DNA of 39,681 bases from Candidatus Omnitrophota bacterium (GTDB lineage Bacteria > Omnitrophota > Gorgyraeia > Zapsychrales > Zapsychraceae), in assembly GCA_029261065.1 (NCBI GenBank), contig JAJDCB010000023.1, forward strand, positions 1 to 39,681. The letters run 5' to 3'. A program made the translations under genes and the position numbers. The notes beneath the pieces were generated by a model. It did not search any database, was not told the origin of the DNA, and worked only from the letters and a program-made list of their open reading frames with translations. Shown here in pieces: positions 1,342-23,649 of this stretch (its first letter is position 1; the number at the start of each line of letters is the position of its first letter).

Positions 1342-1878
1342 ATGAAATATTTTGATGAATTGAAACGCACAATGGAATGGATTGCTGAGCAACCAAAAAC
1401 AATGTTTGTGGGGCAAACGGTCGCGGGGCCGGGGACGTTTATGTTTCAGACGTTAAGAGATGTGCCTAAAGATCGAACGCTTGAGATGCCGATTAATGAG
1501 AGTTTTCAGATGCAGTTTACGATTGGCCTTTCTCTGGCCGGATATGTTCCGATCTCCGTTTACCCACGTCAAAATTTTCTTCTGCTCGCCACAGCCGACA
1601 TGGTCAACATGCTCGATAAAATTCCAGCCATCAGTGACAATCAAGTGTTACCCAAGATCATCATTCGTGTGGCCGCCGGCCCTTATAAACCTGTTCATCC
1701 AGGCCATCAGCATGTAGGCAATTATGCCGAAGGTTTTAAAAAAATGTTTAGTTGGATTGAGGTTATCGAGCTAGAAGAACCAGAAGATATTTTCCCAACA
1801 TACAAGTATGCCCTGGAACGTGAAGATAATAAAGCGACATTGATTATTGAACATGGAAATTATTATAACGATAAATAG
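1342..1878 (+). CDS. Thiamine-diphosphate-dependent dehydrogenase E1 beta-like subunit (Pyr domain only)
   Basis: The 178 residues match the pyrimidine-binding domain of E1 beta/transketolase. The segment around residues 50-70 carries the conserved glutamate (E53 in INES) that activates the aminopyrimidine ring of ThDP, followed by the typical GLSLAG. The C-terminal transketolase domain of ordinary E1 beta is absent, so this is a minimal catalytic half that should pair with the 59-679 product. Its ATG follows the stop of the upstream secreted-protein gene without a gap. The last 57 bp (1822-1878) recur in diverged form at 2551-2608 on the other side of the TPR gene, so this locus has been rearranged by an insertion. 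Confidence 0.8.
   Translation: MKYFDELKRTMEWIAEQPKTMFVGQTVAGPGTFMFQTLRDVPKDRTLEMPINESFQMQFTIGLSLAGYVPISVYPRQNFLLLATADMVNMLDKIPAISDNQVLPKIIIRVAAGPYKPVHPGHQHVGNYAEGFKKMFSWIEVIELEEPEDIFPTYKYALEREDNKATLIIEHGNYYNDK
1822..1878 (+). repeat. Direct repeat copy 1: 3' end of E1 beta
   Basis: This is the proximal copy of a direct repeat pair (1822-1878 and 2551-2608), offset 729-730 bp. It encodes the genuine C-terminus of the E1 beta subunit (EDNKATLIIEHGNYYNDK, stop). The last 33 bp match the second copy at 27 positions by eye, and the first 16 bp at 15. Confidence 0.8.
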
Positions 1879-2580
1879 ATGATGGTTTTGAGTATGCTTT
1901 CTTTAAAAAATATTAAGTTGATCTTATTCTTATCTTTGTTTGGTTGTTTTATCATTACGACAAGTTTTGCAAATGTTGAGCAGTTATCAGAGTTAGATAG
2001 TAAGTTCCAGCAAGCACAAATTTATGTTCAGAATAAAGATTTTCAAGAAGCCGTAGATTTATTATCGGAGCTGGTAGAAGAAGATTCTGAGAATGTAGAG
2101 TATTACAGTTTGATAGGGCTTTCATATCAGTTATTAAACGATATTGATAAGGCTGCAATGTATTTTGACAAATGTATTAGAATGGACCCTGATAATTCTA
2201 TGCATTATATTAGTCGTTCTTCTACTGTTGACAATTTTCAAGCAAAGGAAGCTTGGCTTAAGAAAGCTCTTGAGAAAGATACTCATCATGATGCTGCCAC
2301 TGCGGTTTTAATAGGCCTTTACGATACAGAAGGAACTTCTGAAGAAAATAAGTGTCATTATCAAGAAGCTATTAGATTTGCTGAAGAAAGCATAAGAATT
2401 ACGGAAGACTACATAAATTATAATGAGAAGTTAAGAGAACCAAAAGAGCCTGAAATAGTTGAAATTCTTCCAATGATTAAAAGGCGGCTTTCTGATAAAG
2501 AAAATTGGGCCTTGAGATTAAGAAAAAAGTTAAAAGAAGATGAACCATGTGAAAATAATAAAGCGATGGATGCTCATTGA
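1879..2580 (+). CDS. Exported TPR-repeat protein
   Basis: The 233-residue product has an N-terminal hydrophobic segment (about residues 12-30, ending SFA) consistent with a signal peptide. An LFGC tetrapeptide inside it makes a lipoprotein possible. Tetratricopeptide repeats follow between about residues 35 and 110, with the pattern AVDLLSEL...Y..LG.sY. The remainder is helical and highly charged. ATG codons at 1879, 1882 and 1894 are all possible starts. The last ten residues (CENNKAMDAH) read into a sequence derived from the 3' end of the E1 beta gene, so the native C-terminus was probably altered when the gene landed here. TPR proteins bind other proteins; no specific partner can be named. 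Confidence 0.65.
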   Translation: MMVLSMLSLKNIKLILFLSLFGCFIITTSFANVEQLSELDSKFQQAQIYVQNKDFQEAVDLLSELVEEDSENVEYYSLIGLSYQLLNDIDKAAMYFDKCIRMDPDNSMHYISRSSTVDNFQAKEAWLKKALEKDTHHDAATAVLIGLYDTEGTSEENKCHYQEAIRFAEESIRITEDYINYNEKLREPKEPEIVEILPMIKRRLSDKENWALRLRKKLKEDEPCENNKAMDAH

Positions 2581-2608
2581 GCATGGGAATTATTATAATC
2601 GTAAATAA
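2551..2608 (+). pseudogene. Relic of the E1 beta 3' end (direct repeat copy 2)
   Basis: Downstream of the TPR insert the sequence again reads as the end of the E1 beta gene. After the shared GAAnATAATAAAGCGA, a 1-nt length difference shifts the frame. In the shifted frame it encodes LIEHGNYYNRK and a stop at 2606-2608, almost the same as the real C-terminus. The epimerase ribosome binding site (GGAGAAAAGG) follows at once, which is the arrangement expected of the uninterrupted operon. The relic therefore marks the distal boundary of the inserted TPR segment. Confidence 0.75.
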
Positions 2609-2626: not shown

Positions 2627-3574
2627 ATGAAAATATTAATTACAGGTGGCGCGGGGTATCTTGGGTCTGTGATCACGCCTCGGCTTTTGGGGGAAGGGCA
2701 TTCGGTTGTTGTTTTGGATGATTTTATGTACGATCAAACGTCTTTGATGGATTGTTGCCATTATAAGACGCTTAAGGTTGTACGTGGGGATGCTCGGGAT
2801 AAGGAGCTGCTTTCGGAGTTGATGAAAGATGTTGATGCTATCTTTCCGCTGGCTTGTTTGACAGGAGCGCCTTTATGCGACAAAGATCCTCAGTTAGCTA
2901 AAGAAATTATTGTTGATGCGCTTCAAACGATTCTTGATTTGCGTACGGAAAAGCAAATGATCATTTATCCAACAACCAATAGTGGGTATGGTGTGGGAGA
3001 GAAGGGGAAGTTTTGTACAGAAGAGACACCTTTACGACCGATTTCTTTATACGGAAAACTAAAAGTTCAAGCGGAAGAGATGGTTTTAAAATCAGGAGCT
3101 GGTATCACGTTACGATTAGCAACAGCTTTTGGCATTTCACCACGTGTTCGCCTTGATTTATTGGTCAACGACTTTACCTATCGCGCTGTTCATGAAGGTA
3201 AGATTGAGTTATTTGAAGCCCATTTTAAAAGAAACTATATTCATGTCCGCGATGTGGCCAAAGCCTTTATTCATATGTTGAATAACTTTGACAAATTAAA
3301 AAATGAAACCTATAATGTGGGCCTAAGCGATGCGAACTTAAGCAAATTAGAACTTTGTCAGGTGATTCAACAATATGTGCCTGAATTTAAATTTGTTGAA
3401 TCCAACAACGGCGAAGATCCTGATAAGCGTGATTATATTGTCAGTAACGAAAAGATTGAATCGACAGGCTTTACCCCAGACGTATCCTTGTCTGATGGCA
3501 TTCAAGAACTCATCAAAGGATACACGATCGTTAGAAGTAATAAGAGTTCCACTATCCAATTAACTAACGTATAA
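2627..3574 (+). CDS. NAD-dependent nucleotide-sugar epimerase/dehydratase (extended SDR)
   Basis: A 315-residue extended short-chain dehydrogenase. The Rossmann glycine motif is at G7-x2-G10-x2-G13 (GGAGYLG), and the catalytic Tyr-Lys pair is Y142 and K146 (YGKLK). NYIHVRDVAKA near residue 205 is the usual sugar-binding-region signature of UDP-glucose 4-epimerase-like and dTDP-sugar enzymes. It probably epimerises, dehydrates or reduces a nucleotide sugar in the cytoplasm. A strong GGAGAAAAGG ribosome binding site precedes the ATG. It shares the cluster with the split ThDP enzyme and the DegT-fold enzyme, so a role in one deoxysugar pathway is plausible. The exact substrate cannot be deduced. 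Confidence 0.85.
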   Translation: MKILITGGAGYLGSVITPRLLGEGHSVVVLDDFMYDQTSLMDCCHYKTLKVVRGDARDKELLSELMKDVDAIFPLACLTGAPLCDKDPQLAKEIIVDALQTILDLRTEKQMIIYPTTNSGYGVGEKGKFCTEETPLRPISLYGKLKVQAEEMVLKSGAGITLRLATAFGISPRVRLDLLVNDFTYRAVHEGKIELFEAHFKRNYIHVRDVAKAFIHMLNNFDKLKNETYNVGLSDANLSKLELCQVIQQYVPEFKFVESNNGEDPDKRDYIVSNEKIESTGFTPDVSLSDGIQELIKGYTIVRSNKSSTIQLTNV

Positions 3575-20915: not shown

Positions 20916-21995
<1,080 letters not shown>

Positions 21996-22072
21996 GAAGT
22001 ACAAAATAGGGTAGAAAGTCATTATTTTTTTCATAGATTACATGTTTGAAACGATAGTTTTTACTCGATAAC

Positions 22073-22107
22073 AAAAAAGCCAGTCGCAATTAGCAACTGG
22101 CTTTTTT
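22073..22107 (+). terminator. Rho-independent terminator after gap
   Basis: Perfect 12-bp arms AAAAAAGCCAGT (22073-22084) and ACTGGCTTTTTT (22096-22107) with an 11-nt loop end in a T-run. Being A-flanked and T-flanked it could also act on the opposite strand. Confidence 0.9.
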
Positions 22108-22157
22108 GTGTAATCAGTTCAGTAATGGTCGACAAGAGTCCACATTTTAAACATACA

Positions 22158-22186
22158 TTGTGATACCACGTTTGCTTTGTTACAAT
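22158..22186 (+). promoter_or_regulatory. Promoter of the KilA-N gene
   Basis: TTGTGA (22158-22163) and TACAAT (22181-22186) are separated by 17 bp. A leader of about 29 nt with an AGAGAG element precedes the ATG at 22222. The promoter follows the gap terminator, so the cassette has its own transcription unit. Confidence 0.6.
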
Positions 22187-22221
22187 AAGACAAAAATTTA
22201 ATAAGAGAGAAATGAGTTTAT

Positions 22222-23040
22222 ATGAGCACCGAGAACCAAATCATTGAAGTCAAGGGTTCGCAAATCCACCTTTTCACAAAAGATGAACAGGATTTTATCT
22301 CATTGACCGATATGTTGAAGGCTAAAGACGGAGATTTTTTTATTTCTGATTGGTTGAGGAACAGAAATACCCTTGAATATCTAGGAATTTGGGAGAAGAT
22401 ACACAATCCAGATTTTAATTATGGCGAATTCGCCATAATTAAAAGTCAGGCAGGATTAAACAGTTACAAAATAAGCGTGAAAGAGTGGGTTGAAAAAACT
22501 AATGCAATTGGCCTGCATGCCAAGGCAGGTAGATATGGCGGTACGTATGCTCACAAAGATATTGCTTTTGAATTTGGCATGTGGATTAGTGCCGAATTTA
22601 AAATATACCTGGTTAAGGAATTTCAACGGTTAAAAGAACAAGAAAATAAAACTAAGCAGCTTGAATGGAACTTACAGCGGACGTTAGCCAAAATCAATTA
22701 CCGTATTCATACCGATGCGATTAAAGAAAATTTGATTCCACCAAAATTATCGAAAGCCAGAAGGAATTTCATCTATGCCAGTGAAGCTGATTTGTTGAAT
22801 GTGGCTTTATTTGGCAAGACTGCGCAAGAATGGCGTAAACAAAATTCAGACAAAGAAGGCAATATCCGAGATTATTCGGCTCTGGAGCAGTTGGTCGTAT
22901 TGACTAATCTTGAAAGTATCAATGCTATGCTTATTGATCAGAAAATGGAGCAAGGAGAGAGGTTGGAGAAGTTGAATCAATTAGCAATTACGCAAATGAA
23001 ATCTCTATTAGGTAATCAGGACGTTAAGAAGCTGAAATAG
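22222..23040 (+). CDS. KilA-N domain protein
   Basis: A 272-residue protein whose first 135 residues are a KilA-N domain, a DNA-binding fold related to APSES proteins and common in phages, large DNA viruses and bacterial accessory loci. ISLTDMLK, DWLRNRNTLEYLG, AGLNSYKISVKEW and GGTYAHKDIAFEFGMWIS are typical segments. A helical linker and a C-terminal region rich in charged helices follow (YSALEQLVVLTNLESINA). This type is widely scattered in bacterial genomes outside prophages, and its role is not known. It is carried between gap and a relic of the gap 3' end. A 32-bp perfect palindrome lies within its coding sequence at 22413-22444. Confidence 0.85.
   Translation: MSTENQIIEVKGSQIHLFTKDEQDFISLTDMLKAKDGDFFISDWLRNRNTLEYLGIWEKIHNPDFNYGEFAIIKSQAGLNSYKISVKEWVEKTNAIGLHAKAGRYGGTYAHKDIAFEFGMWISAEFKIYLVKEFQRLKEQENKTKQLEWNLQRTLAKINYRIHTDAIKENLIPPKLSKARRNFIYASEADLLNVALFGKTAQEWRKQNSDKEGNIRDYSALEQLVVLTNLESINAMLIDQKMEQGERLEKLNQLAITQMKSLLGNQDVKKLK
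22413..22444. repeat. Perfect 32-bp palindrome inside the KilA-N gene
   Basis: The sequence is its own reverse complement over 32 bp, centred on GCGAATTCGC, with AT-rich outer arms (TTTTAATTAT). It encodes the FNYGEFAIIK stretch of the KilA-N domain. Part of it is constrained by that conserved protein motif. The full symmetry is more than the motif requires and could be a binding site for a dimer or a hairpin. Confidence 0.9.
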
Positions 23041-23110
23041 GTTAAGAATTTCTTGAACGGAAGCTTAATTAAAAGATAATTATCAGAAAACAATTGAGGA
23101 ATAGAAATTC

Positions 23111-23398
23111 ATGAACAAAGAAGAAGCCAAAGAAATTTTAGTCGAACATATTAATAGTTTGAGACAATTGTCCCATCCCGATTTATGCAAGTATTTGGAA
23201 GTAAAAAATATTGAAACCCCTGAGATCGTTGGAAAGTCAGACGTTAAATATCAATTAGAAATCCAAGCTTTGTGGGATGATGAGCCTAAAGGTCATTTGC
23301 GAGTTATGGTTTCAATTGATGATGGTGGATTAAGAGCTTATTTTCCCATGACAGATGACTTCATAATTACACCTGATGGATCTTTTGTCGATGAGTAA
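23111..23398 (+). CDS. Small conserved protein of unknown function
   Basis: A 95-residue acidic, soluble protein with no signal peptide or membrane segment. An N-terminal helix pair (EEAKEILVEHINSLRQL) is followed by a beta-rich half. It ends with the striking stretch SIDDGGLRAYFPMTDDFII and then PDGSFVDE. I recognise this C-terminal pattern as recurring in small uncharacterised bacterial proteins but cannot assign a function. TTGAGGAATAG upstream of the ATG holds a plausible ribosome binding site. It follows the KilA-N gene by 70 nt and belongs to the same inserted segment. Confidence 0.75.
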   Translation: MNKEEAKEILVEHINSLRQLSHPDLCKYLEVKNIETPEIVGKSDVKYQLEIQALWDDEPKGHLRVMVSIDDGGLRAYFPMTDDFIITPDGSFVDE

Positions 23399-23424
23399 AA
23401 TTAGGCTGATTTATATTTATATGA

Positions 23425-23462
23425 CAGACTATTTTTCTCATATTCGCAGATTATTTTTCTCA
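23425..23462. repeat. Tandem 16-bp direct repeats with 22-bp period
   Basis: CAGACTATTTTTCTCA (23425-23440) recurs as CAGATTATTTTTCTCA (23447-23462), one mismatch, with starts 22 bp apart, about two helical turns. They lie between the small gene and the GAPDH relic in the 23399-23790 gap. This spacing is typical of paired operator sites. The gap also holds the relic ORF, a terminator and the PAS-gene promoter. Confidence 0.7.
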
Positions 23463-23514
23463 ACACAGTATCAAGTAAAAACTCCTTAATAACACTAAAC
23501 TCTTGGGAGAAAAT

Positions 23515-23649
23515 ATGTTACACGGTAATAAAATGTTCAATAAGCCCATCACCTTAATATCTTATTGGTATAATAATGAGTGGGCTTATAGTAATAAAGT
23601 TGTTGATTTGATTAATTATGTTGATTCGGTCAAACCAGCAACAGTATAA
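23515..23649 (+). pseudogene. GAPDH C-terminal fragment
   Basis: A 44-residue reading frame starts at ATG 23515 behind GGGAGA and ends at TAA 23647-23649. Its second half ([19 protein letters not shown]) reproduces the GAPDH C-terminus. At DNA level 23565-23613 matches 21912-21960 of the intact gap gene at 46 of 49 positions. The last eleven codons and the upstream part differ. A terminator follows immediately. This is best explained as the displaced 3' end of a gap gene left behind by insertion of the KilA-N cassette. Whether the short ORF is translated is unknown. Confidence 0.85.

Follow-up and report, generated by a model that had tools for sequence, protein, structure and literature searches.

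The window analysed here comprises the first 39,681 bases of contig C16 (124,669 nt) of an Omnitrophota genome of 2.71 Mb (36 contigs, 95% complete), and all window features described below lie on its forward strand. It opens on an ancestral operon whose first gene, E1 alpha-like (59-679, Pfam E1_dh), adjoins E1 beta in relatives too. Here a secreted DUF5640 protein gene (685-1341) stands between it and a complete E1 beta-like gene of the transketolase pyrimidine-binding type (1342-1878). A TPR gene (1879-2580) comes directly after E1 beta, followed by the epimerase gene of the ancestral operon (2627-3574). The DUF5640 gene, the second extra gene of the locus, is single-copy in the genome, is absent from the E1 beta loci of relatives and has no flanking repeat at either border. 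In positions 1-58, directly before the E1 alpha start codon, CCCTAAA, a telomere unit of the plant type, is repeated about eight times; the run was found nowhere else in the genome and is probably a short tandem repeat at which the assembly broke.

The 3' end of E1 beta is present twice, as the proximal copy that ends the gene itself (1820-1878) and as a distal, stranded copy (2549-2608) into which the TPR gene runs. The two form a direct repeat (1820-1877 and 2549-2607, about 80% identity, spacing 729-730 nt) made up of an 18-nt block (1820-1837 vs. 2549-2566, 94%) and a 37-nt block (1841-1877 vs. 2571-2607, 81%), the distal tail being longer by one net base. When E1 beta was aligned locally with the TPR segment, the score was 33, far above 300 dinucleotide shuffles (mean 12.9, maximum 24), so the repeat claimed in a preliminary description of this DNA is real, although it starts 2 nt earlier than was claimed. 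No further match to the E1 beta tail pattern was found in the whole 2.7-Mb genome. The proximal end, LIIEHGNYYNDK and a stop, is a normal, complete E1 beta terminus. The distal copy reads LIEHGNYYNRK and a stop (TAA, 2606-2608), then TTTATTTGGAGAAAAGGT, then the epimerase ATG at 2627, and the coding content described for it earlier was thus confirmed. The ORF frames likewise agree with the 1-nt indel that had been proposed and with the final ten TPR codons reading into the copy: the TPR ORF is in the E1 beta frame for ENNKA and frameshifted after it, with its last ten codons inside the distal tail. Similarity of the TPR protein to paralogues from its own genome stops at residues 219-221, and the distal copy starts at about residue 224. 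A separate run of overlapping genes for secreted and TPR proteins (L129, G000:C23 184000-199000) includes two paralogues, of about 500 aa each, of the window's TPR protein.

The nearest relatives by E1 beta are all Omnitrophota. Across about 45 Omnitrophota loci the usual operon runs E1 alpha, E1 beta, SDR, epimerase, radical SAM and GHMP kinase, and in most relatives E1 beta ends in N(Y/F)YNxK. The TPR gene was absent at all of the E1 beta loci read, and a second E1 beta tail was found at no other; the relatives' loci are short, so counts in relatives are lower bounds. A nucleotidyltransferase-HepT pair follows E1 beta at two of the loci (L010 and L012), without a repeat. The SDR gene that separates E1 beta from the epimerase in most relatives (about 930 nt, sugar-nucleotide, MxKxSxILIVGHxDIIE...) is missing here, and its orthologue appears to have been lost, because the best match genome-wide is only a 35-45% identical relative. 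Four further loci (L111, L043, L029 and L021) also have no SDR gene, with 20-243 nt from E1 beta to the epimerase, and a direct E1 beta-epimerase junction is a derived state. It had been predicted that relatives without the TPR gene would show an E1 beta ending of the NYYNRK kind joined directly to the epimerase. The tail type was as predicted; the junction was not, as SDR intervenes in most, and a 'displaced original end' is therefore not simply readable from these relatives. What stands of the preliminary description is that a TPR gene landed at the E1 beta 3' end with a second tail left stranded, on the basis of its absence from relatives, the lack of second tails there and the same anatomy with known cargo elsewhere. 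Its identification of the distal copy as the original end of E1 beta does not stand in the same way.

Over their last 36 nt the proximal and distal tails share 28 positions, and their mean identities to 44 relatives over this length are nearly equal (27.0/36 and 26.9/36), which favours neither copy as the native one. Conserved codons differ silently only, replacements fall at columns that vary within the family, and in its residues the proximal tail is like that of the nearest genus (G006, L020) and the distal tail like those of most others. To judge from these comparisons, the copies have diverged to the degree seen between tails of different genera, and neither has decayed. As the divergence is of this extent and mostly silent, a recent local duplication is unlikely; instead, two diverged E1 beta tails appear to have been brought together at one locus.

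The window holds a second instance of this anatomy. The last 27 codons and stop of the GAPDH gene (20949-21995, protein start most likely at 20985; proximal end 21912-21995) recur at 23566-23649, followed by a terminator-like hairpin, and between the two copies lie a KilA-N gene (22222-23040, PADLOC candidate defence family PDC-S22) and an ORF for a 95-aa protein without a family match (23111-23398). At both E1 beta and GAPDH, the insert is flanked by the complete host gene and the displaced end fragment. Stranded GAPDH ends were found in three genera, each with different cargo: in this genome, in G019 (a Gp49-like toxin with an HTH antitoxin) and in G015 (AbiEi, AbiEii, a weak, sub-threshold HNH match and a nucleotidyltransferase). 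All three start at the identical base, the TGG of W310, behind unrelated flanks (taatatcttat|TGG, gacaaaaatc|TGG and agggtcaacc|TGG).

For G019, the stranded GAPDH end (EYIAAKQPALAKK and terminator) matches the uninterrupted native end in G025, a genome of the same genus, and the neighbouring gene that follows is also the same. The end that G019 uses (DSVK, stop, GGGTTACAACAAA) matches those used by G015, which is of another genus, and by G003. This pattern of matches indicates a native stranded end and a foreign end in use, and the native status of a stranded end is shown for the GAPDH of G019 only. A point against the explanation preferred below is that G003 carries the foreign-type end despite belonging to the same genus as G019 and G025. 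The G006 genome has a KilA-N gene 81% identical to that of the window, also downstream of GAPDH (itself 76% identical), where it comes after a nucleotidyltransferase-HEPN pair; no stranded end was found at the G006 GAPDH locus. GAPDH tails also occur in two IMG/VR contigs of temperate gut phages, 3300006099_000008 and 3300009117_000023 (loci L331 2919-4131 and L334 1-1088, one tail running from about codon 291), directly before a gene that inspection, rather than a family search, identified as tyrosine-integrase-like. The position of these tails makes the GAPDH 3' end a plausible phage attachment site in other hosts. No E1 beta or FecCD tail was found in phage contigs by exact pattern.

Repeats of a gene end that lack the remainder of the gene were sought in 720 kb of this genome (657 ORFs). 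A further 400 kb of contigs C3 and C19 gave no extra case, so that about 1.1 Mb was scanned in total, some 40% of the genome, and the case count is a sample. Besides E1 beta, the cases were GAPDH, a FecCD permease gene (twice) and comF. The FecCD permease 3' end is stranded first past HipAB and then past an Unstab_antitox/ParE pair (L175 10307-13846, G000:C23 about 333300-336850); both stranded ends have the same starting point, and the more distant of them is shorter and more degraded, in keeping with successive inserts piling up at the gene end. At comF it is the 5' end that is duplicated (128 bp, 97%), around an ORF6N gene (L166 14148-15768, G000:C23). All genuine 3'-end copies lie downstream of their gene on the same strand; none was found upstream or on the opposite strand in the scan of this genome. 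Among relatives, 2 of 30 ORF6N loci contain a stranded comM or leuS end (L214 and L212), and a HipA_C-HIRAN locus (L314) contains a stranded 5' end of a gene named tsaE by inspection. By Pfam and PADLOC, the cargo named for the other cases in this genome is KilA-N (PDC-S22), ORF6N (PDC-S05) and otherwise toxin-antitoxin modules. The TPR and DUF5640 proteins had no PADLOC match, and the TPR gene belongs to no known defence or toxin-antitoxin family, unlike the cargo of most other cases.

Several candidates were rejected as further cases: the repeats of L210, L207, L208 and L282 are interspersed or hairpin repeats, those of L217, L206, L223 and L202 are neighbouring ORF6N paralogues, and most control-locus matches are paralogous SDR, GalT or response-regulator domains. 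L211, with a PEP-CTERM end upstream of ORF6N, was ambiguous and was left out of the count.

At three other loci (L325-L327) ORF6N adjoins a tyrosine integrase gene, with smpB nearby in L325 and L327, and these are likely integrative elements at a tmRNA site; in L325 the integrase gene's own 3' end is stranded past two small ORFs. A different arrangement is seen in L169 (10765-13200, G000:C23), where paralogous 147-aa ORFs are each followed by a similar sequence of about 70 nt (TTTAGTGCCCAAACGGTGCCCATC...) in three copies; a cassette array is possible there.

Six pairs of ends, each included because it had been found, were pooled for a comparison of silent and replacement differences. Silent differences numbered 52.8 and replacements 33.2, with silent sites making up 21.5% of all sites (p about 1e-15), and this excess indicates that the stranded ends diverged while coding. 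It is clearest at FecCD (16 silent to 2 replacement), leuS and comM; the GAPDH pair of the window and the comF pair, two of the six, have no silent excess on their own.

The arrangement was compared with systems in which DNA is inserted at gene ends. The e14 prophage uses the 3' end of icd as its attB, and the gene is restored. More generally, under the Islander principle, integrative islands and prophages insert at a gene 3' end that serves as attB and is restored (PMC4383910). As in such islands, a regenerated gene and a displaced fragment mark the ends of each insert, the insert would supply a diverged end, and the junction base, at GAPDH, is fixed. Unlike them, the Omnitrophota inserts measure 0.7-4.7 kb, hold one to few genes, none of them for an integrase, and lie in many different protein genes, some at 5' ends, rather than in tRNA or tmRNA genes. 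The phages with GAPDH tails use the same gene end, which the integrase-like gene adjoins directly, but they are complete and apparently have other hosts, whereas phage genes are absent from the Omnitrophota cassettes. In fungal mitochondria, gene hybrids have been formed by mobile endonuclease ORFs at atp6 of Allomyces and at atp6, atp9, cox2 and nad3 of Glomus (PMC3630166). These share with the present cases a foreign C-terminus on a native gene, a cargo ORF, a native C-terminus stranded downstream (an origin that is apparent here for the GAPDH of G019 only) and many silent differences between the two ends; the present cases are bacterial and have no recognised homing endonuclease as cargo. 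Homology-facilitated illegitimate recombination resembles them in having one homologous end and in placing a foreign gene beside a conserved one (PMC3240628), but that process has no fixed junction, whereas the present cases retain a repeat and have fixed junctions at GAPDH and FecCD.

The TPR gene probably lies in a short insert at the 3' end of E1 beta that followed the pattern of elements integrating into gene ends. The arriving DNA would bring its own version of the last codons of the host gene, so that after integration the host gene would be complete and the resident end would stay on the far side as a fragment. An attachment site is suggested by stranded ends that start at one base in the three GAPDH genera and at one place in the two FecCD copies, E1 beta being one case; these fixed junctions favour site-specific recombination over random joining. 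The enzyme would be a site-specific recombinase that has since gone from the cassette or that acts in trans. No integrase was found in 1879-2580, in 22000-23565 or in the G015 and G019 cassettes, and no common core was visible among the E1 beta, GAPDH, FecCD, comM and leuS junctions. The E1 beta case would belong to the same class of gene-end insertions as the others, and the SDR loss before the epimerase would be a separate event. Retention of toxin-antitoxin and defence genes, once acquired, may explain why they are frequent as cargo.

Homologous recombination without a site-specific enzyme would have brought in E1 beta-TPR DNA of a related genome by a crossover inside E1 beta, the other end being closed by illegitimate joining or by a single crossover of a circle. 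Cassettes without a recombinase and target sites without a common core accord with it, diverged coding ends fit a foreign donor, and both illegitimate joining and the single crossover of circularised DNA are known (PMC3240628). The KilA-N gene beside GAPDH in two genera, at 81% identity where GAPDH has 76%, also speaks for such transfer. We nevertheless consider this rather unlikely, as the stranded GAPDH ends of three genera, with different cargo, begin at one base and the two FecCD ends at one place, and homology-facilitated illegitimate recombination mostly deletes resident DNA and leaves no repeat (PMC3240628). A homing process, in which a mobile endonuclease element brought the new gene end and has since decayed to other cargo, would account for an anatomy that is the same as at fungal mitochondrial atp6, atp9, cox2 and nad3 (PMC3630166), and the weak, sub-threshold HNH match in the G015 GAPDH cassette is in its favour. 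Yet no endonuclease is present in the window's E1 beta segment (TPR only) or GAPDH segment (KilA-N and the 95-aa protein), and the cargo is mostly toxin-antitoxin, ORF6N or KilA-N, so that homing is highly improbable.

Had the 3' end of E1 beta been duplicated locally in tandem, the TPR gene would have arisen, or landed, between the two copies. Copies that are close, on the same strand and found only here suggest such a duplication, but it is disfavoured and in our judgement improbable: the copies differ from each other as much as from the E1 beta of other genera, both ends look working when an idle local copy should have decayed, and the same anatomy occurs at unrelated genes with unrelated cargo. 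An assembly artefact could be suspected, given a draft of metagenome type and a window that is a contig end starting in (CCCTAAA)n; it is scarcely credible for copies only about 80% identical and single-copy in the genome, with an anatomy that recurs in independently assembled genomes.

The insertion reading is thus preferred, and under it the segments are best read as what remains of elements whose attachment sites are gene ends, or as cassettes of such elements that lack an integrase. A wider proposal, which we hold as no better than tentative and consider somewhat doubtful, is that Omnitrophota exchange integrase-less gene-end cassettes that land at a fixed base, restore the gene with codons of their own, strand the native end, stack at one gene over time, and are mobilised by a recombinase in trans. 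Each cassette, as proposed, would comprise one to few genes, often toxin-antitoxin, ORF6N or KilA-N, together with the last or first codons of a conserved host gene, which would serve as its attachment site.

What differs from the known systems is that the inserts are small and integrase-less, carry mostly toxin-antitoxin or candidate-defence cargo and are spread over many housekeeping genes. Islands are routinely found through displaced tRNA ends; displaced protein-gene ends around inserts of one to four genes are rarely sought, and a stranded gene end is a simple pattern for which every genome can be screened. Stranded ends also form a layered record, as with the two stacked inserts at one permease gene, and the inserts alter the tails of housekeeping proteins by horizontal transfer. 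Displaced protein-gene ends reveal a way in which small modules for defence or of the toxin-antitoxin kind get into essential operons without damaging them, and their recurrence in this genome and in related genera points to a repeated route by which new genes are slipped into essential ones that remain unbroken.
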